Of a DNA stretch of 64,000 nucleotides, positions 57 to 36,981 are shown one piece after another (position 1 is the stretch's first letter; the number at the start of each line of letters is the position of its first letter). Source of the stretch: a bacterium D16-76. Lineage in GTDB: Bacteria; Bacillota; Clostridia; Oscillospirales; Acutalibacteraceae. The notes below the pieces were generated by a model. It did not search any database and was not told the origin of the DNA. It worked only from the letters and a program-made list of their open reading frames with translations. The position numbers and the translations under genes are program-made. The stretch spans positions 1 through 64,000 of the forward strand of contig QZEE01000005.1 of the NCBI GenBank assembly GCA_009917445.1. Direction: 5' to 3'.

Positions 57-1802
<1,746 letters not shown>

Positions 1803-1904: not shown

Positions 1905-3620
1905 TTATGCGGATGTAAGGTAGGTCATATCAGCGGAAGGCGTACAGTCAAGGCCGCTTAGGAATTGCTCTACGCTTAGATTCAGCTTGATGTTCAGTTG
2001 ATATCCACGGTATACGTCAACTCTCTCAATAATGTGGGAGACAATGACTTTCTTTGCCGGGAAAGTCACATGGTCATAGGCAGCGGACCATTCCAGGATA
2101 TCGTCATATTGCCGGCTCATGCGGTCAAGGGTAAACTTGTTATCGTCCAGCTCTTGCTGGACGATAACAATGGCACGTTTCAGCTCGCCACATTTGACCT
2201 CCTGCTCTTGGATTACACTGTTTAGAAGTTCCGGGGAAAATGCGCTTTCGCCTGAAATGGATTTGATGATCTCTTTTTTGAGATTTTTTAACTCCGATTC
2301 AGCTTTTTCATACTCCCTTTTTGTGCTCTCCAGCGCGGCCTTTCTCGTGGTGCAGTCAGACGCAAACCGCTCCGCGATGATTTCCTCCCGGCTAAGGCTG
2401 CTCACCTTTGCAAAAATGGTATGTATGACAGAGTCTATCATAGCGTCCAGTTTATGAACAGTATAACCTGTCTGACCGTCACAATCGCCGTGGGTGCGGC
2501 TCTTTGTCTGGCAAGTATAGCGGGTACGGACTTCATCGGTGCCGTCCTCCCTGCGGCGGCCTTTTCCGCTGGTGGTAATACACAGCCTTGCCCCGCAATG
2601 GCCGCAGAACACGTTGCCTGCCAAAAGTGACTGGCCTCTGGTATTCAATGGCTTTGCCCGGATTTGCTCGGTGGAGCGGGAACGTGCCGCCAGCATATCC
2701 TGGACCTCCTGGAAAATGCTGTCCTCCACAATTCTTAGGCGCTCTATGGGTTCAGAACGGCTTTTGCCACTCCGCAGCACCCCGGTATAAAGAACATTCC
2801 GCAGCATACCCTGGATAGAGGATGGGTGCCAGTTTTTGCCGGAGCGGTTCTTGATCCCGCGCTCATTCAGGTAATTGGCAACCCGCTGCGCTCCAAACCC
2901 GCCCTTGGCGGCAAGCTGGAATATGAGACGGACTATTTCGGCCTCCGGCTCTCCGATTGCCAGATCATTGACCTCCTGGCGGCGCTTGTTCTTTCGTCCG
3001 CTCTTGACAAAGTTGTACCCATAGGGGCGGGAGCCGCCTGTAAAGCATCCGTCCTCTGCCAAAAGGCCCATGCTGTTGGCCGTGCGGATAGAGGTCTTTT
3101 CACTCTCGCCGTCGGCCTGCCAAAACCTGATATAGTTTGTCAGCTTGTCCGTATGATTGTCAAAGCGCTGTTCGCCCTCTTGGGTACTCCAGACACGGAT
3201 GCCGTTGCGCACGAACCACTCCACCACAAAGGGCGTTTCATCGGAGATACGGCCTATCCGGTCGAACATGAACACCAGGAGAATGTCAAACTTTTTCTGT
3301 TTGGCATACTCCTTGATAAGCTGTATCTTGTCCCGGTTTTCCGCCCGTACCTTGTGGCCGGAAACGCCCTCCTCCTGCAATTCGCACACGATCGTCCAGC
3401 CCATAGATTCACAGTATTTCCGGCAGCGCTTTCTCTGCATGGGGATATCCGCCTCGTTGTTGTCAGTTTGGTATAGCTGCTTATCGGTAGAAACGCGGTA
3501 AAGGCATAAAACCCTCGTTCCCGGTTCGATGCAGGACGGGATATCCATTCTCCAACCGGTATCTTTATCAAAAAGGGCATTTTCAGAAACATGATTCGGG
3601 ATAATGCTTGTTTGATTCAT
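1905..3620 (-). CDS. Large serine recombinase near the ICE left end
   Basis: This 571-aa integrase is the likely excision/integration enzyme of the ICE because it lies 100 bp inside the left attachment repeat. The N-terminal catalytic domain carries the nucleophile serine in LCLYRVSTDKQ, then FMFDRIGR. A recombinase domain follows, then a zinc ribbon (FCGHCGARLC ... CQTKSRTHGDCDG), a coiled coil and a C-terminal tail. The ATG at 3620 (MNQTSIIP) was chosen because AAAGGATGG precedes it; the frame is open to 3689 but without a ribosome site. It is only distantly similar to the recombinase at 57-1781, so the two are not a duplication. The 100 bp between it and the repeat contains only tiny ORFs, such as MNENRLQ, behind a good ribosome site. 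Confidence 0.92.
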   Translation of the reverse strand: MNQTSIIPNHVSENALFDKDTGWRMDIPSCIEPGTRVLCLYRVSTDKQLYQTDNNEADIPMQRKRCRKYCESMGWTIVCELQEEGVSGHKVRAENRDKIQLIKEYAKQKKFDILLVFMFDRIGRISDETPFVVEWFVRNGIRVWSTQEGEQRFDNHTDKLTNYIRFWQADGESEKTSIRTANSMGLLAEDGCFTGGSRPYGYNFVKSGRKNKRRQEVNDLAIGEPEAEIVRLIFQLAAKGGFGAQRVANYLNERGIKNRSGKNWHPSSIQGMLRNVLYTGVLRSGKSRSEPIERLRIVEDSIFQEVQDMLAARSRSTEQIRAKPLNTRGQSLLAGNVFCGHCGARLCITTSGKGRRREDGTDEVRTRYTCQTKSRTHGDCDGQTGYTVHKLDAMIDSVIHTIFAKVSSLSREEIIAERFASDCTTRKAALESTKREYEKAESELKNLKKEIIKSISGESAFSPELLNSVIQEQEVKCGELKRAIVIVQQELDDNKFTLDRMSRQYDDILEWSAAYDHVTFPAKKVIVSHIIERVDVYRGYQLNIKLNLSVEQFLSGLDCTPSADMTYLTSA

Positions 3621-3802
3621 ATACAGTCCATCCTTTTCCTTGTTTATTGAAAAATGACAGACCAGCATATCCCAATATGAAATTGTCAAGGTACAGTTGT
3701 AATGTGTACCCGCGTATGCTAAGGGCTTGCAATCCCATGGCGCATATTAGGCTTTCCTACATATATATTATCTCATATCATGCGGTTTCTGTCAAATTTC
3801 AC

Positions 3803-5177: not shown

Positions 5178-5394
5178 GCCAGCGCAAGTATCATGATTCC
5201 CCGCTATGCGGATTATGGCCTGCTGCCTTGCCAGGGCAGTTTGCCGCTTGGTGTGGTCGCTCCGTTTCTGTGGCCGTGTTCACCACCTTTCCCGCTCACG
5301 AAACATCTTGGCGCACCTTACGGCATGACTCCCCGCACAGGGAATGTATCTGTTTTGCCTTATTCAATTTTCAAGGTTCTTTGGGACAAAAAAG

Positions 5395-5421
5395 TAATGC
5401 GTCCCAACTTGGGACGCATTA
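5395..5421. repeat. ICE palindrome copy 1 (perfect)
   Basis: A 27-bp perfect palindrome with arm TAATGCGTCCCAA around a central C. It sits 57 bp past the stop of the sigma-factor gene. It is a member of the family described in the findings. Confidence 0.9.
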
Positions 5422-5477
5422 CCCGGCCAGACGATAAGGCAGGAAACATGTCCCTTACCTATCGTCTGTATTTGGCC

Positions 5478-5963
5478 TTAATGCATGGCCTTTTTGAAAA
5501 ATTTTTTCAATTTCTCTTTTGCCCTCCAAAGACTTTCAGCTATGTTCTGATAGGCTACACCCTCAGAGTCGGCAATTTCTTCCTGCGTCTTGTCCTCGAA
5601 GTAATACTTTAAGAGCCTCCTGCGCTGGGGTTCAGTTAGGCAGGTGTCTATCCCTTCTGAAAGCAGCTTGCAAAACTGTTCCCTGTCCAACTGGTCATAC
5701 CACTCGGACAGCAGTTGTTCCGGGGAAGGGGAAGCCGCCTGCGCTGCAGCCCCGTCTAAACTGGTGGTATGTTTGGCGTATGTATGGTTTCCTATATCCG
5801 CAATGTGGTAATCCTCATCCGACCAGACTTTCCACTTGTGAAATTCTTCCTCGGATGAAAAGTCCTCTTGCCGCAGACGTACATAGGCCCCGGCCGCCGT
5901 TTTGAACACAATGGCGCCAGGGTCTTTTTTGTTTAAGGCATAATCGCTTTTTCGGTCAAACAT
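5478..5963 (-). CDS. RNA polymerase sigma-70 family factor (region 4 type)
   Basis: This 161-aa protein resembles the small sigma factors carried by Tn1549-like ICEs. The N-terminal half (YVRLRQEDFSSEEEFHKWK) is the element-specific part. The C-terminal half is a sigma-70 region 4 helix-turn-helix: LTEPQRRRLLKYYFEDKTQ, then EEIADSEGVAYQNIAESLW. It should direct or modulate transcription of ICE promoters, though no target is shown. ATG 5963 was chosen because AAAGGAGA lies 8 nt upstream; the frame is open to 6239 but that extension lacks a ribosome site and is AT-rich non-coding in composition. A 16-bp-arm inverted repeat overlaps the ribosome site (5976-6015). Confidence 0.82.
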   Translation of the reverse strand: MFDRKSDYALNKKDPGAIVFKTAAGAYVRLRQEDFSSEEEFHKWKVWSDEDYHIADIGNHTYAKHTTSLDGAAAQAASPSPEQLLSEWYDQLDREQFCKLLSEGIDTCLTEPQRRRLLKYYFEDKTQEEIADSEGVAYQNIAESLWRAKEKLKKFFKKAMH

Positions 5964-10599: not shown

Positions 10600-10624
10600 A
10601 ATGCGTCCCAAGTCGGGACGCATT
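10600..10624. repeat. ICE palindrome copy 3 (one mismatch)
   Basis: Arm AATGCGTCCCAA with the right half carrying TC instead of TT at the centre. It lies between two convergent genes (stops at 10543 and 10627), where it could also end transcription in both directions. Confidence 0.85.
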
Positions 10625-12719: not shown

Positions 12720-12746
12720 AAATGCGTCCCAACTTGGGACGCATTT
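12720..12746. repeat. ICE palindrome copy 4 (perfect)
   Basis: A 27-bp perfect palindrome (arm AAATGCGTCCCAA, centre C). It lies directly after the C5 methyltransferase stop at 12752 and upstream of the hydrolase ribosome site. Confidence 0.9.
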
Positions 12747-16486: not shown

Positions 16487-17041
16487 CTACTGTGTCCCAA
16501 GTTGGGACGCATTAAATTCAATCGAGCTTTCAACCTCATTGCCCCACACGTCCCAGCCGGGAACGGTCTGCCGGGCAAAAAGCTCTATACGGGGGATATC
16601 CCCCATGAGGGCAACAATCTTTTCCCGGACGATATCCGGTTTTTTGCTATGCTGTTCTATAGGCGAGATAATGAATTGGTGTACATTCGCGACCTTTCTT
16701 TTAGGATGGCCTTTGGTCGCTAGTAAGCATATTTCAGCGTTTCCCCTTGTCCAGAACCCCAGCCCATAAAACCAGCTATCTGTCTTGCGGTTTTTCTTCA
16801 GCCAGACAAAAGCCACTGTTTTATAGCGGAACCTCCATGCGTTGATAACACGCAGCGTGTCTGCCAGTTGGGGAAAGGTTGACCAAAGGAACAGGGCGCA
16901 ATCTGGGGCGGCAATATCCGCAACAGGCAAGTCGCAAAGCTGGCTGATACTCATGGTAGGATAATGTTTCTCAGCAGCACCCCGGAGATTTTTCTGGCTA
17001 TACCGCCAGGGCGGATCAGCATAAATAATCGGATACTTCAT
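16487..17041 (-). CDS. MT-A70-family adenine-N6 methyltransferase
   Basis: This 184-aa enzyme has the catalytic DPPW in YPIIYADPPWRYSQK near its N-terminus, then LPVADIAAPDCALFLW and FWTRGNAEICLLATKG, the order seen in phage and ICE MT-A70 enzymes. It should methylate adenine in DNA. ATG 17041 overlaps the upstream VirB6-like stop (ATGA). The final codons (ASQLGTQ, stop) are encoded by palindrome copy 5, so the repeat has been absorbed into the C-terminus. It sits between channel genes, so it is expressed with transfer and probably helps evade restriction. Confidence 0.9.
   Translation of the reverse strand: MKYPIIYADPPWRYSQKNLRGAAEKHYPTMSISQLCDLPVADIAAPDCALFLWSTFPQLADTLRVINAWRFRYKTVAFVWLKKNRKTDSWFYGLGFWTRGNAEICLLATKGHPKRKVANVHQFIISPIEQHSKKPDIVREKIVALMGDIPRIELFARQTVPGWDVWGNEVESSIEFNASQLGTQ
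16491..16514. repeat. ICE palindrome copy 5
   Basis: TGTGTCCCAA-G-TTGGGACGCA with one T/C difference between arms. It covers the end of the MT-A70 gene and lies 10 bp upstream of the PrgI-like ribosome site. Confidence 0.85.
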
Positions 17042-17877
17042 AGTCCAAACATTTCTTTTGCCAGCCGGTCCGCGCCCTTTACCAGCCCTACCAGCACCAG
17101 CATATTGAAAACAAGCTGGCCCAGGTACTCCCAGGCCATAGTGACGGCGGGAAGGCTGGGATCTACCGATGGGGTGGAGCTTGACAGGAACGCGGAATAG
17201 ATCAGGCAGGCCAGCACAATGATAATACCCTCGGCGCACACGCCTATATAGGATTTGATGAAAGCCTTGCCGGTGGAGGACGTACCCTCCCCGGCAAAAG
17301 ACGCCAAGGGCAGCGGGGCCAGGGCCGTGTACATATAGAGCCGGAAGAACCGGCTGTACACAGTTAAAATCAAGATAAAGGACAGCACCGTTATAATCAG
17401 GCTGGCAAGTAAGGACACCAGCCAGAGGGGGATGGATTCAAAAAAGCCTATCCCCTCTATGGCGTCCACAATTTCCGTGGGCAAGTCGGCCCCGGCGCTG
17501 ACCATGCCGCCCATGCTGTCCATAACATTGCCCACTATGCCGCCGCAAATTTTGAAGATGGCGGACATGATATCCATGGAGTACCCCACGGCCACCTTTG
17601 CCCCGGCAAACCGGATAAAGTGCCGCAGGGCAAATTCCGGCCTCTGCATTTCCTTAAAGCCCGCCGCACTCTGGAACACGCCCATGGCAAAGAAAAGCAC
17701 CAGCAGTCCATACCCAATGCCCTGCATGGCCCCGGCCAGGGTGTTGATGATGTTCCAGATATCCCCGCCTTTGAAGGTTTCCGGGGATTGGGTCAGGAGC
17801 GACCACAGCTCGGCCAGCTTGCCGTTCCAGGCGCCCAAGGCGCTTTGTATGTTCTGTACCACCCAGTTATCGCTGAT
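17038..17877 (-). CDS. VirB6/TrbL-like T4SS membrane protein, probable AUC start
   Basis: This 279-aa polytopic channel subunit reads SDNWVVQNIQSALGAWNGKL at its N-terminus, then about six hydrophobic segments (for example GLLVLFFAMGVF and LASLIITVLSFILILTVYS). It matches ICE VirB6/TrbL-like subunits. AAGGAGG lies 9 nt before ATC 17877. The first usable GTG (17862) lies too far from it. An ATG just after the ribosome site is out of frame because of one extra T, so a recent frameshift of an original MA-ISDNW start is the alternative. Palindrome copy 6 lies immediately upstream. Confidence 0.85.
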   Translation of the reverse strand: MSDNWVVQNIQSALGAWNGKLAELWSLLTQSPETFKGGDIWNIINTLAGAMQGIGYGLLVLFFAMGVFQSAAGFKEMQRPEFALRHFIRFAGAKVAVGYSMDIMSAIFKICGGIVGNVMDSMGGMVSAGADLPTEIVDAIEGIGFFESIPLWLVSLLASLIITVLSFILILTVYSRFFRLYMYTALAPLPLASFAGEGTSSTGKAFIKSYIGVCAEGIIIVLACLIYSAFLSSSTPSVDPSLPAVTMAWEYLGQLVFNMLVLVGLVKGADRLAKEMFGL

Positions 17878-17896: not shown

Positions 17897-17925
17897 AAAA
17901 TGCGTCCCAAGTTGGGACACATTTT
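17897..17925. repeat. ICE palindrome copy 6
   Basis: 29 bp, arm AAAATGCGTCCCAA, centre G, one C-to-A mismatch in the right arm that becomes a G-U pair in minus-strand RNA. It ends 8 bp before the AAGGAGG of the VirB6-like gene. Confidence 0.9.
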
Positions 17926-17951: not shown

Positions 17952-18275
17952 TTACACCACGCCGATCAGCTTCAGGATGTCCTCCGCACAGGCAATGAGC
18001 AGGCCGCCGAACAGGCACAGAAACCCTTGCGTCCGCTGGCTGGCGTCATGGGACTGGACGGACATGCCCACCTGCACCATGCCCCATCCCAGGATAATGA
18101 TCCCGATGGCGCGGATGCAGGAAAAAATAAAGGTGGACAGGTTGTTTACAATGGTAAGGGGGCTGTCACCACCGTCTGCGGCAAAGGCCGGGACTGCCAG
18201 GACGGTAAAAGCCACGGTCAGCACGGCCCAAAAGGATATGGCCCATTTTGCGGGCCGAGGTGTGTGTGTTTTCAT
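17952..18275 (-). CDS. Small T4SS membrane protein (Maff2/VirB2-like)
   Basis: This 107-aa protein has an N-terminal signal-like helix (WAISFWAVLTVAFTVLAVPAFA), a short loop and two further hydrophobic helices (LSTFIFSCIRAIGIIILGWG and GFLCLFGGLLIACAEDILKL). That is the layout of Maff2-type or VirB2-like subunits in Gram-positive ICEs. ATG 18275 overlaps the VirD4 stop (ATGA). It is placed between coupling protein and VirB6-like subunit, as in Tn1549 relatives. Pilin-like role is by position only. Confidence 0.75.
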   Translation of the reverse strand: MKTHTPRPAKWAISFWAVLTVAFTVLAVPAFAADGGDSPLTIVNNLSTFIFSCIRAIGIIILGWGMVQVGMSVQSHDASQRTQGFLCLFGGLLIACAEDILKLIGVV

Positions 18276-20029
18276 TCAGATTCCTCCATATCTTCTATAA
18301 TTTCGATTTCGTCTAAGCTGGTAAACGGAAAATTCAAGTCCTCCACCGCATAGGGGGAGGCGGGGTAGTGGATATATGGCGCGGCCCCGCCGTCCTCGGT
18401 CAGTGAAAGATTAGGGTGTTTCATAAGGTCGTACTTATTATCCAGCACAGGCAGCTCGCCACGGAGCAGCACCAGGGCCTTGGCATTATCCAGCATACGC
18501 ACCTCGTCCGGGGTCATGAGCTCCCGGCCGGACTGCTGAAAATTCTTGCTGAAAGAGCCATTTTTGCCCTTGCTCTGGCTGTGGGTGGATGTGCTGATGG
18601 TCTCCTTGCCCAGTAGCTCGGAGATATATTTGTGGGTGCTTTTCTCGTTGCCGCCGAGGTAGCAAAAAGCGTCGGCGTTGCCGATTATCCCCTCCCAATC
18701 GTCCTTAAAAAGCCCTTTTAGCTGGGAGATATTTTGCAGGATAATGGTAGCCATAATGTTGCGGCTGCGCATGGTGGCCTGCAAGCGGGCGTAGCCGTCC
18801 GGGAGGGCGATGTTCGCAAACTCATCGAACATCAATCGAACAGGAATGGGCAGGGAGCCGCCATAATTCCGGTCGGCCTGATAGTACAACTCCTGGAAAG
18901 CCTGGGTATAGAGCATACCCACCAGGAAGTTGAGGGAGGCGTCGTTGCTGTCCGGGATAACGCAGAAAACCGCCTGTTTGCGGCTGCCCAGCTTGTCCAG
19001 CTCCATATCGTCCCGGCTGGTGATCCGCTGCACTTCTGGCAGGGTGAAAGCAGACAAGCGAACAGCAGCCTGCACCAAAATTGACTTTGCAGTTTTGCCG
19101 GCGGCTTGCTTGAAAATTTTGTACTGCCGTACCGCGATATGCTCCGGCTGTTCTTCCTCCAGGGCCTCGAAAAGCAAGTCAAGGGGGGATTGAAAATCAT
19201 CATCGTCCTCCTTGGCGCTGCCGTACTCTATCATGGTAAGTATCATTTCCATGTTCTGTTCTTCGGGCGGGGCCTCGTGGAGCAGATAGAGCATGAGCGC
19301 ACTGTCCAGGGCGGTTTCGGATTTTTCCCAGAACGGGTCGGAGTTAGCGGCCTTTTTGGGGGTGGTGTTCTTGATGAAATTGTCAATGAGCCGGAACACG
19401 TCGGAGTCTTTCCGGATATATCGAAAGGGATTATAACAGTCCGAGTGCTCCGGGTCTATCAGGTCAAGGACACGCAGGGTATAGCCCTTTTGTAGCAGCA
19501 GCGCGCCCACGGAGCGCAGCACCTCAGATTTCGGGTCTGTGACAATGTAGCTGGTATTGGCAAGGTAAAGGTTGGGCTTCACCACAAAGCGGGTCTTGCC
19601 GGAACCGGAGCCGCCCACGATTATCTGTAACAGGTTGCGGCGGTGCTTGCGGCTGTCCAGGCCCATTTGCAGGCGCTGGGTCAGAATGACGTTTTTCTCC
19701 GGGTCTTTGTCCCGGTATTTGCGGTTCAGTTCCCGGACGCTGCCCCATTTTGCCGAGCCGTGTTCCTCGCCTGGGCGCTTGTTCTCCCGGGTGGAGTAGT
19801 ACATAAAAATGGCGCAGGCGTAAACTGCCAACGCGCCCAAGATGAAAGGTATGGTTTGGGCCGTCCACCTCAAGGCAAAGGGGCGTTCCATAGCTTTTGA
19901 GAAAGCGCCCATAAAGTCAATGAGATCCATCCCGGCGGTATAAGCCCCGGCGGCGGCCGCGCCCAGCCATACCACCACAAGGGAAAACGCCGCCCAAACA
20001 GGCGCGGCGTCACGAAAGGATTTCTTAAT
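18272..20029 (-). CDS. VirD4-family type IV coupling protein, probable AUU start
   Basis: This 585-aa coupling protein brings the relaxase-DNA complex to the channel. Two N-terminal membrane helices (AFSLVVVWLGAAAAGAY and IPFILGALAVYACAIFMYY) precede the TraG/VirD4 ATPase with Walker A GGSGSGKTRFVVKP and Walker B LMFDEFANIALPD. AGGAGG is followed after 8 nt by ATT 20029 (then KKSFRDAAPVW). The only upstream alternative, GTG 20038, overlaps the ribosome site itself and cannot be used normally. Palindrome copy 7 ends 6 bp before the site. The downstream small membrane gene overlaps by 4 bp. Confidence 0.9.
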   Translation of the reverse strand: MKKSFRDAAPVWAAFSLVVVWLGAAAAGAYTAGMDLIDFMGAFSKAMERPFALRWTAQTIPFILGALAVYACAIFMYYSTRENKRPGEEHGSAKWGSVRELNRKYRDKDPEKNVILTQRLQMGLDSRKHRRNLLQIIVGGSGSGKTRFVVKPNLYLANTSYIVTDPKSEVLRSVGALLLQKGYTLRVLDLIDPEHSDCYNPFRYIRKDSDVFRLIDNFIKNTTPKKAANSDPFWEKSETALDSALMLYLLHEAPPEEQNMEMILTMIEYGSAKEDDDDFQSPLDLLFEALEEEQPEHIAVRQYKIFKQAAGKTAKSILVQAAVRLSAFTLPEVQRITSRDDMELDKLGSRKQAVFCVIPDSNDASLNFLVGMLYTQAFQELYYQADRNYGGSLPIPVRLMFDEFANIALPDGYARLQATMRSRNIMATIILQNISQLKGLFKDDWEGIIGNADAFCYLGGNEKSTHKYISELLGKETISTSTHSQSKGKNGSFSKNFQQSGRELMTPDEVRMLDNAKALVLLRGELPVLDNKYDLMKHPNLSLTEDGGAAPYIHYPASPYAVEDLNFPFTSLDEIEIIEDMEESE

Positions 20030-20048
20030 TCCAGTCACCTCCTGAAAA

Positions 20049-20073
20049 AATGCGTCCCAAGTTGGGACAGATT
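20049..20073. repeat. ICE palindrome copy 7
   Basis: AATGCGTCCCAA-G-TTGGGACAGATT; the core is perfect and two outer bases of the right arm differ. It lies just upstream of the VirD4 ribosome site. Confidence 0.88.
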
Positions 20074-26839: not shown

Positions 26840-28498
26840 TCACCTTTCCTTTGCGGCGTCCTTCACCGCCTGCTTGGCTTTCTGCTTTTCCTCCATTTTA
26901 CGCTGCAGGTCCAGGGCATTGAACACCTTGCGTTTGACCTCGCTGACCGTAGGGGCCTTGTCATTGGGGAAATACTCCTTCAGTTCATTGCTGGTGAAGG
27001 TGTACTTGATTTCGGGTTCGGCCTTGGGCTTGACAATGGAAGATATCTTCTTTTCGTCCAGCGGAGCGGGGGCCTTGGCGGGCTTGGTGGGTGCAGGGGG
27101 AGCAGCTTTCTCCGTGGGCTGAGTGGCGTTGCCCATAACAGGCGGTTTTGGGGTAGAGGCTGTTTTTTCCAGCGCAGGGGCAGCTTTCGCGGCCTCCTGG
27201 CTGGCCTTTTTTATCTCTGTGGCCTGGGCCATGGTGGGGACAACGCCCTCTTTCTTGATATAGTCCACCACCTTTTCCTGTTCCTCGGGCTTGAGATAGG
27301 ACAGCTCCACCGCCGTATTGAAGGGCATTTCTTTTTTGTCCACCTGCTGTTTTAAGTCTGGCACCAGGGATTCAATCCGCACTAAGCGCTGTACCTGGTT
27401 GCGGCTCATGCCCAAGTCCTCGGCCACCTGCTGGTCAGATCGCTTTTGCGGCCCGGCAAGCTGCTCCATCTTGGAGCGCCGCCCAGCTTTGCGGGTCAGG
27501 GCGTCCAGTTTCATTTTGGCGGCACGGGCCAGCTCAGAGGTGGGAATATCCTGGCGGTGCAGGTTGCCATCCACCACTTCAATGCGGGCGGTATCGTCGT
27601 CCTCCCGGACGATCACTACGGGCACGGGGTAGTTCAACTGCTTGGCAATATCGTGCCGCCTGTGGCCGGAGAGCAGCTCCAAACCGCCGCCCTCCCGGGG
27701 GCGGGCCTTGACCGGCTCGTTGATGCCGTTTTCTTTGATGGATTCATACAAATCCTTGTAGTCCTGGACTTCCCGGTTAATGGAAAAGGGGTGTTCCAGG
27801 AACTCAAAGAAATAGCCAGGGTGCAGGCGCATGGAAAAACCCTCGCCTTCCTGGGGAATGGGCAGGCTTTTCAGCGCGGATTCATCGGGCTTGTCCAGCT
27901 TATCCGCAAAAATCTGCGTTACCTTTATCCCTTTAGGCGGCTCAATAGCAGTATCTTTCGCGGGGCCAGCGGCGGGGGCAGGCTTACTATCACTGTTCTT
28001 TGCCGGAGCCTCTGATTTTTTATCGCTGGTGGCAGGGATGGACTTATCCTCACCAGCCTTTACCGGGGTATCGGGCTTTTTGTCACCAGTGGCAGGGGTG
28101 GCCTTACCGTCACCAGCCTTTGCCGGGGCATCGGGCTTTTTGTCACCAGTGGCAGGAGTGGCCTTACCGTCACCAGCCTTTGCCGGGGCCTCTGGCTTTT
28201 TGTCACCAGTGGCAGGAGTGGCCTTACCGTCACCAGCCTTTACCGGGGCCTCTGGCTTTTTCTCACCAGTGGCAGGGGTGGACTTACCGTCACCAGCCTT
28301 TGCCGGGGCCTCTGGCTTTTTCTCACCAGTGGCAGGGGTGGACTTGCCGTCACCAGCCTTTGCCGGGGTATCGGGCTTTTTCTCGCCAGGGGCAGGTGCG
28401 GCCTTGGTATCAGCAGCTTTCAGCGGGCCACTGTCCAGCTTGATTTGCTCAGGTTTCTTTTCAACCGGGGATATGCCTGGCTTTTTGTTATCGGGCAT
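26840..28498 (-). CDS. ParB-like partition/segregation protein with Ala/Pro/Lys repeat arm
   Basis: This 552-aa protein has an unusual N-terminal arm of about 185 residues made of 20-residue Lys/Pro/Ala repeats (GDKKPEAPAKAGDGKATPAT type). It then has a ParB/Srx-fold domain (about 240-325) with LLSGHRRHDIAKQL as the CTP-binding ParB box, and a helix-turn-helix (SDQQVAEDLGMSRNQVQRLV, about 360). A second low-complexity C-terminal region follows. No ParA is nearby, as is usual for Tn1549-like ICEs. ATG 28498 follows AAGGAGG. Three ICE palindromes lie within 20-135 bp upstream, so ParB is the first candidate to bind them. Confidence 0.88.
   Translation of the reverse strand: MPDNKKPGISPVEKKPEQIKLDSGPLKAADTKAAPAPGEKKPDTPAKAGDGKSTPATGEKKPEAPAKAGDGKSTPATGEKKPEAPVKAGDGKATPATGDKKPEAPAKAGDGKATPATGDKKPDAPAKAGDGKATPATGDKKPDTPVKAGEDKSIPATSDKKSEAPAKNSDSKPAPAAGPAKDTAIEPPKGIKVTQIFADKLDKPDESALKSLPIPQEGEGFSMRLHPGYFFEFLEHPFSINREVQDYKDLYESIKENGINEPVKARPREGGGLELLSGHRRHDIAKQLNYPVPVVIVREDDDTARIEVVDGNLHRQDIPTSELARAAKMKLDALTRKAGRRSKMEQLAGPQKRSDQQVAEDLGMSRNQVQRLVRIESLVPDLKQQVDKKEMPFNTAVELSYLKPEEQEKVVDYIKKEGVVPTMAQATEIKKASQEAAKAAPALEKTASTPKPPVMGNATQPTEKAAPPAPTKPAKAPAPLDEKKISSIVKPKAEPEIKYTFTSNELKEYFPNDKAPTVSEVKRKVFNALDLQRKMEEKQKAKQAVKDAAKER
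28019..28425. repeat. 60-bp tandem repeat in parB
   Basis: About six and a half 60-bp units (containing gtcaccagtggcagg and gccttaccgtcacc), 85-95% alike, encode the 20-residue repeats of the ParB arm. Being in-frame, copy-number change would only alter arm length. Confidence 0.92.
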
Positions 28499-28516
28499 TC
28501 AATTCCTCCTTCTTTT

Positions 28517-28539
28517 TGTGTCCCAACTTGGGACAGATT
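28517..28539. repeat. ICE palindrome copy 9
   Basis: TGTGTCCCAA-C-TTGGGACAGA, upstream of parB (19 bp from its ATG, overlapping the region just 5' of the ribosome site). Confidence 0.88.
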
Positions 28540-28557
28540 TTTACAGATACGGGTCAA

Positions 28558-28582
28558 AATGCGTCCCAAGTTGGGACACATT
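28558..28582. repeat. ICE palindrome copy 10
   Basis: AATGCGTCCCAA-G-TTGGGACACATT, one base different between arms; 41 bp from copy 9. Confidence 0.9.
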
Positions 28583-28601
28583 ACTTACAAGGATAAAGCC
28601 A

Positions 28602-28630
28602 GAAATGCGTCCCAAGTTGGGACGCATTTC
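28602..28630. repeat. ICE palindrome copy 11 (perfect, 29 bp)
   Basis: Arm GAAATGCGTCCCAA with central G, perfect. Spacing between centres of copies 9, 10 and 11 is about 42 and 46 bp, close to four helical turns. Confidence 0.9.
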
Positions 28631-28670
28631 CAGATATCCCCTGTGATCAACAGGATTTTTTATAGAAAAT

Positions 28671-28699
28671 TTGCATTTTGATTCCAGGCGCGGTACAAT
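28671..28699 (+). promoter_or_regulatory. Promoter of the SLH-CAP gene
   Basis: TTGCAT (28671-28676), a 17-bp spacer and TACAAT (28694-28699), 43 bp before the ATG at 28743. Confidence 0.6.
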
Positions 28700-28742
28700 T
28701 ATATTGTAAGAAATTTATATAACAAGAAAGAGGTTCTATATT

Positions 28743-30008
28743 ATGAAAAAGCGGTTTTGTTTTGTACTGTTCCTGGTTCTGCTTGTCACCTCCCTTTGGT
28801 CTGTCCCCGCCCGGGCAAAAAGCGTTTCCGCCTTTACAGACGTAAAGCCCGGCGCATGGTATTACAGCGCCGTGGAATACGCCGTGTCAAACAGTCTGTT
28901 CAGCGGTACATCAGCCGCCACGTTCAGCCCCAACACGCCTATGACACGGGGGATGTTCGTTACCGTGCTGGGCCGTTTGCATGGGGTTGAAAAAAGCTAT
29001 GGCATGGACAGCCAGTCCCCCTTTGGCGACGTGGCAAAAACAGCCTATTACTTCCCCTATGCCCTGTGGGCCAGCGAAAACGGTATTGCCAACGGTACAG
29101 GCTACGGATTCAACCCGGACGGAAAGATCACCCGGGAACAGATGGCGGTCATGCTGTATAATTACTTTGTGAAATTCAACACCTTCTCTCTGATAGAAAA
29201 AGACAGCGATTACCATACCTTCACCGACCGCGACCGGGTTTCCTCTTTTGCCCGGCCCGCTATGGAATGGGCCGTCCGGTATGGCCTCCTGAATGGCACC
29301 GGGCAAAAAAGGCTGGAACCCCAGGGGCAGGCCAGCCGGGCCCAGGTGGCCCAGATATTCCTGAGCTTCAGCAAACTGGAAAAGTACGCCACACCCAACG
29401 CCACGCCGGCGCCTCCTGATTTAACGCCCACGCCTTCCCCGGTTCCTACGCCTGCACCCACTCCCGCGCCCACCCCTACAACCCCGCCCTGGTACAACTA
29501 TGACCCAGTCTACGAGCTGCCCACCGGGAAGTCGGAAAAGGACGCCCACGGCGGATATTTTGACTATGACTTGGCCCGGGAAGTCACCCGGCAAATCAAC
29601 GAGCTCCGGGTAAAAGAGGGGATGAAGGCCCTGAAATTCCACCCCCTCATAAGGGATTGGGCGGATATCCGGGCCATGGAGAGCGAAGTATTGTTTGAGC
29701 ATACCCGGCCCGATGGCAGCGTGTGCCTCACCGTGGGCCTGGGCCTCCATGTGGAGAACCTATATAAAGGCATCGGCTACCCGGTAGGGTATATTGCTGA
29801 TTCCCGGGCCATGGCAAAGCGCATTGTGGACAGTTGGTACAACTCCATCGGGCACCGGCGGAATATGCTCCACACGTCCATGGACGTGGCGGCGGTCTCC
29901 TGCTATGTGGTGGACCGGAACGTATACGCCGCCCACCTGTTCAGCAAACACCCCCTTTACTTCTTTGACTATGATATTTACGATATCTACGGCTGGCCCC
30001 GGACATGA
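28743..30008 (+). CDS. SLH-domain surface protein with C-terminal CAP domain
   Basis: This 421-aa exported protein has a signal peptide (MKKRFCFVLFLVLLVTSLWS, cut near ARA at about residue 25). Three SLH repeats (about 30-215: FTDVKPGAWYYSAVEYAV, FGDVAKTAYYFPYALWA, FTDRDRVSSFARPAMEWAV) bind cell-wall polymers. A Thr/Pro linker (TPAPTPAPTPTTPPW) precedes a CAP/SCP domain (about 265-415) with ELRVKEGMKALKFHPLIRDW, HTRPDG and GHRRNMLH. CAP proteins in bacteria act at the cell surface with varied, mostly unknown roles. It is the only plus-strand gene in this half of the ICE, with its own promoter and terminator. Confidence 0.93.
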   Translation: MKKRFCFVLFLVLLVTSLWSVPARAKSVSAFTDVKPGAWYYSAVEYAVSNSLFSGTSAATFSPNTPMTRGMFVTVLGRLHGVEKSYGMDSQSPFGDVAKTAYYFPYALWASENGIANGTGYGFNPDGKITREQMAVMLYNYFVKFNTFSLIEKDSDYHTFTDRDRVSSFARPAMEWAVRYGLLNGTGQKRLEPQGQASRAQVAQIFLSFSKLEKYATPNATPAPPDLTPTPSPVPTPAPTPAPTPTTPPWYNYDPVYELPTGKSEKDAHGGYFDYDLAREVTRQINELRVKEGMKALKFHPLIRDWADIRAMESEVLFEHTRPDGSVCLTVGLGLHVENLYKGIGYPVGYIADSRAMAKRIVDSWYNSIGHRRNMLHTSMDVAAVSCYVVDRNVYAAHLFSKHPLYFFDYDIYDIYGWPRT

Positions 30009-35726: not shown

Positions 35727-35751
35727 AATGCGTCCCAACTTGGGACAGATT
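35727..35751. repeat. ICE palindrome copy 12
   Basis: AATGCGTCCCAA-C-TTGGGACAGATT, two outer differences, 40 bp from copy 13. Confidence 0.88.
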
Positions 35752-35766
35752 ATCCTATTTTGTTTT

Positions 35767-35787
35767 TGTGTCCCAACTTGGGACACA
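35767..35787. repeat. ICE palindrome copy 13 (perfect)
   Basis: TGTGTCCCAA-C-TTGGGACACA, a perfect 21-bp palindrome in which both arms carry T/A where most copies have C/G. It ends directly at the repA stop codon (35788). Confidence 0.9.
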
Positions 35788-36723
35788 TTAGCCGGAACCG
35801 TACAAATCATGCTGTACCTCTGCCTGATAAAACTGCCCGATGGTAGTGGGCGCGTTGTAAAGGCTGGTGAGCAGATAAGCGCGGATATTGTGGATTTTCT
35901 TCGTACTCTTACGCAGGCAGTCAAACACATACTGGACATGCGTTTCGTCCAGCTTCCTAAAGCGGGAACGTACCGCCTGGATAGGAACTTTCTCCCGCCC
36001 TATCTGGACAGTGGGCTGGGTAGAAGTCAAAACATCGGTAATCAGGTCCGTAACCCCCTCCACGTCCTCCCTGCCGTATTCCTCCGCAAGCTGGTCAAAA
36101 CAAATATTTTCCATCACCTCCTCCCGGCAAGCCTGCCAATCCATCCCATCCGTCATTGGCTGGATAGATGGATTGGTATAGCTCCTTTCAGTCTGATTCT
36201 TGTAAGTATAATTACACTCCGGTTTTCCGAACTCTGCACTTCGGCTTTCCCGAAGTCTTGACTTCTGATTTTCCGAACTCTTGACTTCGGTTTTTCCGAA
36301 GTCTGGATTTCGGGCCGGGGGAGGGGGAGGGTTTTCAACCTGTGGCGGGATATCCTTGCAGGTAAAACGCTTGACATATATCATGGCTGGCTTACCTTGC
36401 CCCTGCTTGACCCGTTGGATCAGGCCGATGCCTTTGCCGGTGTCCAGTTCTGCCAGCAGCTTGACCGCCTTATCGTTGCCGCAGTTCAGGGCCTCTTTGA
36501 TTTCATCTAAGGGATAGTAGATGAACACACGGTTTTCCTCGTCATACCAGCCGTTGCGGGCCGACAAACCCATGCGGTCAAGCATAAGGCCATAGAGCAG
36601 CTTGGCGTCAGTGGAAACATGCTTGAACTCCGGGCCCACAATGAGCTGACGGGGGATGCGGTAGAAACTGAACTGCTCCGATTCCCCGCCGTAGAAATAA
36701 TCATAGTCAAGGCGGTCTTTCAT
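35788..36723 (-). CDS. repA: RepA_N-family replication initiator
   Basis: This 311-aa protein has the RepA_N winged-helix domain (about 15-115): FYRIPRQLIVGPEFKHVSTD, AKLLYGLMLDRMGLSARNGW, VFIYYPLDEIKEALNCGNDK. A linker follows, then a DUF6017-like C-terminus (about 195-305: FDQLAEEYGREDVEGVTDLI, KSTKKIHNIRAYLLTSLYNA). It would let the excised circle replicate during transfer. ATG 36723 follows AAAGGAG. It lies 180 bp inside the right attachment site, the standard place in Tn1549-like elements. The region coding residues 140-175 contains short direct repeats (cttcggttttccgaa-like). Confidence 0.92.
   Translation of the reverse strand: MKDRLDYDYFYGGESEQFSFYRIPRQLIVGPEFKHVSTDAKLLYGLMLDRMGLSARNGWYDEENRVFIYYPLDEIKEALNCGNDKAVKLLAELDTGKGIGLIQRVKQGQGKPAMIYVKRFTCKDIPPQVENPPPPPARNPDFGKTEVKSSENQKSRLRESRSAEFGKPECNYTYKNQTERSYTNPSIQPMTDGMDWQACREEVMENICFDQLAEEYGREDVEGVTDLITDVLTSTQPTVQIGREKVPIQAVRSRFRKLDETHVQYVFDCLRKSTKKIHNIRAYLLTSLYNAPTTIGQFYQAEVQHDLYGSG

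Positions 36724-36905: not shown

Positions 36906-36981
<76 letters not shown>

Follow-up and report, generated by a model that had tools for sequence, protein, structure and literature searches.

Dispersed palindromes as probable loading sites of an orphan ParB-like protein in a Bacillota ICE

We analysed 64,000 nucleotides of a contig from the Clostridia bacterium D16-76, hereafter called the window. It contains a 35-kb ICE integrated at a tRNA-Ala gene, with a RepA_N gene, a relaxase, a VirD4-type coupling protein and further transfer genes. Two serine-recombinase genes (57–1781 and 1905–3689) flank the left 59-bp repeat (Table 1), and the first of them overlaps it. The product of the parB gene exceeds the Pfam cut-offs for ParB_N (27.5 versus 26.3 bits) and HTH_ParB (26 versus 22.6 bits) and scores slightly below that of TIGR00180 (55.5 versus 58.45 bits). 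A PDB sequence search with this protein matched Spo0J, ParB and Noc. Its N-terminal A/P/K-rich repeats are encoded by 60-bp direct repeats (28100–28420), the length of which varies among relatives. Nine ParB matches of this family, some of them partial, were found in the genome. Below, we refer to open frames of roughly 430–720 aa with repetitive N-termini as long ParBs and to those of about 310 aa as short ParBs. The GxRR motif of the CTP clamp, searched as a regular expression, occurs in all 38 long ParBs and in 95 of 97 short ones, the NxxR motif in 27 of 38 and 71 of 97, respectively.

A sequence-only reading had placed three palindromes directly upstream of parB, and we confirmed three exact copies of GTCCCAASTTGGGAC there, with gaps of 21, 64 and 110 bp between the cores and the parB ATG (28498, minus strand). 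Their centres are 43 and 46 bp apart (about 4.1 and 4.4 helical turns); the earlier reading had given 46 bp correctly and 42 bp for what we measured as 43 bp. It had also taken the palindromes as helically phased, which was not borne out. We rejected phasing on a 38-bp spacing in the second cluster of the window and on pairs 36 and 45 bp apart in one sister locus; as these spacings differ, a constant phase is no feature of the sites.

In total, the window holds 11 copies of the palindrome (ten exact, one with a single mismatch), all of them within the ICE (5401 to 35784). With up to three mismatches allowed, 13 matches were found versus a mean of 1.63 in shuffled sequences, and this number was reached in 0 of 100 shuffles. 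A de novo palindrome scan recovered 11 copies at up to one mismatch, versus one copy in each of three simulated sequences. All ten exact copies in the 3.78-Mb genome lie inside the window; the rest of the genome contains none. Window-type sites keep their dyad symmetry beyond the 15-bp core, giving the extended form AATGYGTCCCAANTTGGGACRCATT. Judged by the mechanically called ORFs, most sites are intergenic, the exceptions being those at 16494 and 5401. The parB leader was the one region scanned for promoters, and its three sites sit downstream of the predicted promoter.

Table 1. Coordinates of the palindromes and associated features in the window
Feature	Position	Strand	Remarks
Left 59-bp direct repeat, likely att	1744–1802		Partial tRNA
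Palindrome copy	5401–5415		Exact; within a mechanical 139-aa ORF (5193–5612) without Pfam match
Palindrome copy	10605–10619		One mismatch; just beyond the 3' end of the M23/lysozyme-like ORF
Palindrome copy	12726–12740		Exact; between the M23/lysozyme-like ORF, the start of which is uncertain, and the methylase ORF
Palindrome copy	16494–16508		Exact; overlaps the MT-A70 ORF at its 3' end; 22 bp ahead of the start of a 114-codon frame with RBS
Palindrome copy	17904–17918		Exact; between the VirB2-like ORF (17952–18275) and an ORF starting at 17862
Palindrome copy	20054–20068		Exact; just before the VirD4-type coupling protein gene (18272–20038)
parB, 552-aa orphan ParB-like protein	26840–28498	-	A/P/K-rich repetitive N-terminus; Pfam ParB_N and HTH_ParB
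HTH_ParB match, residues 345–419	27242–27466	-	Pfam
ParB_N match, residues 246–307	27578–27763	-	Pfam
Palindrome GTCCCAACTTGGGAC	28520–28534		Exact; parB leader, closest to the ribosome-binding site
Palindrome GTCCCAAGTTGGGAC	28563–28577		Exact; parB leader, middle
Palindrome GTCCCAAGTTGGGAC	28609–28623		Exact; parB leader, far; inverted-repeat dyad reaches 28602–28630
Promoter-like TTGTTA-16-TATAAT	28698–28725	-	Upstream of the three leader palindromes; consensus match only, 10/12
Palindrome copy	35732–35746		Exact; between the RepA_N gene (3' end) and a minus-strand start downstream
Palindrome copy	35770–35784		Exact; adjoins the 3' end of the RepA_N gene (35788–36723)
Right 59-bp direct repeat	36906–36964		Inside tRNA-Ala(GGC) 36906–36981

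If the palindromes belong to ParB, sister ICEs should carry them, and the earlier reading had named sister elements lacking the palindrome as evidence against its proposal. In one contig scan we found six close relatives with ParB cores 75–97% identical to that of the window, and all six carry the palindrome, with one to seven copies each at up to one mismatch in the sequence covered. A site lies 21–48 bp before parB in each of the ten related loci having the upstream region, window included. An RBS and a start codon were present within 70 bp of 49 of 124 sites, versus 625 of 5400 random positions; the other 75 sites had none within that distance.

Several diverged long ParB loci without ParA have a repeated 15-bp palindrome of their own, different from that of the window. 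A motif-free de novo search of other long-ParB loci gave the odd 15-bp dyads GGGCCAANTTGGCCC, GGGCCATNATGGCCC, CCCTCAANTTGAGGG and GTCTCACNGTGAGAC, and further GTCTCAANTTGAGAC, TGGACAANTTGTCCA and GGGACAANTTGTCCC; the best count in simulated controls was 2 at up to one mismatch. Searches of whole genomes with their own motifs found ten exact copies in G207, all within 17 kb, six exact copies within 13 kb in G233, and six copies (three exact, three with one mismatch) within 12.3 kb in G332. The pattern GGGCCAWNWTGGCCC is noisy at this scale when one mismatch is allowed (2 to 17 matches per genome for the reversed control), and exact, chance-like copies without an element occur in G000 (two) and G252 (one). 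Degenerate motifs at several long loci had escaped a search that required perfect 7-bp arms, and a rescan of 35 long loci with nine fixed motifs gave more. At up to one mismatch, G477_C27 and G000_C148 had no copy of these nine motifs, and many other loci had one or two copies only, several of them near contig ends. Copies upstream of parB in G363_C7b may belong to another element. We took L032 to be G509:C6 and L033 to be G352:C34 and counted each once among the elements.

Some observations on these loci stand by themselves. The ParB frame of G509:C6 ends early compared with 96%-identical relatives. A shared terminator-like stretch (hairpin plus T run) precedes parB in loci with GGGCC- or GGGAC-type sites, for example G233_C2, G470_C56 and G505_C2. 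Arrays of GTCTCACNGTGAGAC are found at about 65.6–84.5 kb of G332:C3 and about 200.6–203.8 kb of G252:C1, with no ParB relative nearby by tblastn. The long ParBs E_G207_C1, E_G373_C1b and E_G233_C2 combine dispersed copies with a palindrome inside the gene (7, 6 and 6 matching pairs of 7) and are possible intermediates between the long and the short form.

In short ParBs, the palindrome is mostly located within the parB gene itself, in the linker between ParB_N and the HTH. From 165 ParB ORFs we dropped identical ones and those below 200 aa, leaving 135. These contain 81 perfect 15-bp odd palindromes, 68 of them at one alignment column, compared to about 9 expected by arithmetic in 150,240 bases. 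At the in-gene site at least six of seven pairs match in 92 of 97 short ORFs, and 66 of these 92 sites are perfect dyads versus 0.25 expected when each protein was left unchanged and its codons were drawn from the synonymous usage of the gene concerned. Positions 8, 9 and 10 were symmetrical in 82, 85 and 93 of 99 genes, respectively. In a family sample of 200 genomes, the exact palindrome of the window occurs in seven, its own genome among them; in five of the other six it lies within parB and in one its context resembles the repA-side site of the window.

The dyad was also encountered elsewhere. Locus L041 encodes a close ParB relative with the site in its gene, and in L311 the palindrome occurs with no parB gene. 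A distant ParB-like frame of 28% identity (L082, 1769–2158), located on a viral contig of 110 kb, includes the palindrome at 1872. Among the matches listed, 14 of 120 viral stretches have at least three exact copies of GTCCCAASTTGGGAC each, ten in the case of L043 (9080–13905). No ParB relative was detected in these 14 stretches by tblastn (E 1e-4), and another protein may use the same dyad there.

We then compared the arms of the in-gene sites with the ParB sequences, using the 92 short ParBs with at least six of seven pairs, the numbering of L177, and all columns except those encoded by the palindrome. Mutual information peaked in the HTH, where columns 164 and 166 pair with arm positions 1–2, columns 177, 178 and 181 with positions 2–4, and column 205 with position 6; rare variants also threw outliers such as column 262 with arm position 7. 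Among these short ParBs, N178 goes with C4 (26/26), D178 with G4 (24/24) and R205 with C6 (24/24), and C6 never occurs without R205. The R205–C6 pairing agrees with published work on Noc, which was not used in our analysis: there, arginine at residue 201 reads cytosine 6 and residue 173 contacts base 1 (PMC7383237).

Six HTH residues predicted much of the arm. In figures that are optimistic because these 92 genes also served to choose the code columns, positions 1–4 of left-out genes were predicted correctly in 89/86/80/84% of cases (40/32/40/35% with permuted arms, at most 64/61/60/60% with 200 random six-column sets), the relative closest in the remainder of the protein gave 52/42/50/53%, and with relatives more than 50% identical barred the code reached 62/64/74/74% versus 24/21/28/28% for the rest of the protein. 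Split halves, which are unaffected by this choice, settled on the same residues, 178 and 166 being chosen in 20 of 20, and predicted positions 1–4 with 80/75/78/81% accuracy versus majority baselines of 48/43/55/49%. Equally unaffected is a further set of 30 ParBs, obtained from 35 new loci after removal of four duplicates and one fragment. Of these, 25 came from a class search and five from named plasmids (Pusillibacter, Cohnella, Monoglobus, Subdoligranulum and Enterococcus faecalis); one is 98% identical to a training ParB and the others 51–89%. The palindrome was present in 29 of the 30 (24 perfect). With one ParB left out for having 5 of 7 pairs, positions 1–4 of the remaining 29 were predicted with 86/86/86/83% accuracy versus a baseline of 45/41/59/48%, and all six positions were right in 16. 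In this set the code did no better than baseline at arm positions 5 and 7 and only slightly better at position 6.

The corresponding residues of the window ParB are R353, D355, R366, N367, Q370 and N394 (columns 164, 166, 177, 178, 181 and 205). They are identical to those of four short ParBs, all of which have GTCCCAA in their gene, and the short-ParB code predicts exactly this arm for the window. Among 15 long-ParB classes, eight were right at all six positions, a test that is independent only where the motif was found de novo, as in the window, since arm labels of the weaker long loci were given after the nine-motif scan and some were not blind; for two divergent long ParBs only three of six positions were predicted. 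In an AlphaFold model of low overall confidence (mean pLDDT 54), the code residues are predicted to lie at or beside the HTH helices.

These results show that the sites are genuine, that they are restricted to the element and that they are coupled to HTH residues of ParB. According to the core idea of the sequence-only reading, ParB of the element binds the dispersed palindromes, with a parS-like or autoregulatory cluster at parB. This was borne out computationally: the six relatives, the private palindromes of diverged long ParBs, the HTH covariation and the predicted window motif all speak for it. We consider it quite probable, on sequence evidence, that the palindromes are sequence-specific loading sites of the orphan ParB of the ICE, dispersed and autoregulatory in the manner of KorB. 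The part of this proposal by which ParB would bind the palindromes is strongly supported computationally.

The same pairing of ParB and site could instead serve partition or organisation of the excised, replicating ICE, as a dispersed centromere that controls no genes and uses a ParA from the host or another element. The RepA_N gene of the ICE has two sites beside it, its own genome has 15 ParA-family matches elsewhere, and short relatives often adjoin a ParA gene (54 of 97 loci, many of which include only about 1.2 kb upstream). We nevertheless regard this role as unlikely, though it deserves to be taken seriously. The sites are enriched before start codons, and ParB had been said to lack a ParA, which holds by the searches made: there was no ParA-family match on the 149.6-kb contig of the window or in the 35 long loci (1.21 Mb, two-query search), and the cognate ParA encoded nearby that would place the window in a ParABS system was not found. 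That 38 long ParBs show no canonical ParA-binding motif counts only weakly, because the motif is also absent from the first 120 aa of 97 short ParBs.

Two further explanations do without ParB. The palindromes might form RNA hairpins in leaders and act as terminators, attenuators or mRNA stabilisers; indeed, the leader RNA is predicted to fold strongly (z = -10.1) and three of four terminator-like calls in 28400–28800 involve or neighbour the palindromes. But the pair flanking the centre varies symmetrically across loci (AA..TT, AC..GT), and these bases could not pair in RNA across one nucleotide. As the arms also track ParB HTH residues and Rfam gave four tRNA matches, none at the sites, we hold an RNA role to be highly improbable. 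That another regulator of the element uses the sites as its operators is less credible still. The ICE does encode a PadR-like protein and a second one weakly matching sigma region 4, and many sites precede genes, but it is the ParB recognition helix with which the sites covary, and they do so in isolated short parB genes of other elements and plasmids.

In the preferred reading, the helix-turn-helix of a ParB dimer would recognise the odd dyad GTCCCAASTTGGGAC, or AATGYGTCCCAANTTGGGACRCATT in its extended form, as we strongly infer from the covariation. Since ParB_N retains the GxRR motif of the CTP clamp, the protein would probably load at the 11 sites and then slide along the 35-kb element, as members of its family lead one to expect. 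Through the three leader sites it would control its own gene, and through those near transfer and replication genes it would act on the element by silencing or tuning it, a role like that of KorB on RK2.

Known systems offer partial parallels. parS and NBS are even dyads of 14–16 bp, and in Bacillus subtilis a parS lies inside spo0J. The ParBs described here share with chromosomal ParB–parS and Noc–NBS the domains ParB_N and HTH_ParB, palindromic sites and, in the short ParBs with R205, an arginine matching residue 201 of Noc that goes with C6 (PMC7383237). Unlike those sites, the ones described here have an odd 15-bp core with a free centre, are private to the element, and are dispersed or located in the gene. 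Like the spo0J parS, the short-form site lies within a parB-type gene, but spo0J carries one shared chromosomal sequence and here each gene has a different site.

KorB of RK2 is a parallel to the long form. It is described as a clamp that depends on CTP and silences genes for replication and transfer, with OB sites either 4–10 bp or 45 to more than 1000 bp away from promoters (PMC11790492); a title cited there gives 12 sites. Both are ParB-family proteins with operators dispersed over a conjugative replicon, here 11 sites on a 35-kb ICE. They differ in host group, in site sequence and in the long repetitive N-terminus of the window ParB; the leader sites of the window are downstream of the predicted promoter, unlike the upstream operators of KorB, and no counterpart of IncC, the ParA relative of RK2, was found here. 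In our reading, the long form would be an orphan, autoregulated clamp with sites spread over the element. BisD of ICEclc-type elements is likewise ICE-borne and ParB-type, said to be a ParB-CTPase-fold protein that regulates gene expression (PMC12704722); it is Gram-negative.

We found no prior description of these sites in the open-licence literature. With a slight preference over the contrary, we propose that mobile elements of Bacillota have a large ParB family with a private, readable code, in which the short form encodes its own site and the long, ParA-free form has its site scattered over a conjugative element, corresponding in Gram-positives to the KorB circuit and perhaps of independent origin. 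With the short-form site written in parB, protein and site would be inherited together and able to co-diverge. The analysis links ParB-like proteins of Gram-positive ICEs and plasmids to a DNA site, gives a testable rule by which the site is read from the protein, and yields dozens of natural variants in specificity with which to ask how ParB-type proteins change sites. ICE-wide control by an orphan ParB clamp is now directly testable. If the proposal is true, private sites would keep co-resident elements from interfering, which would be one way for many related elements to share a single gut bacterium without cross-talk.
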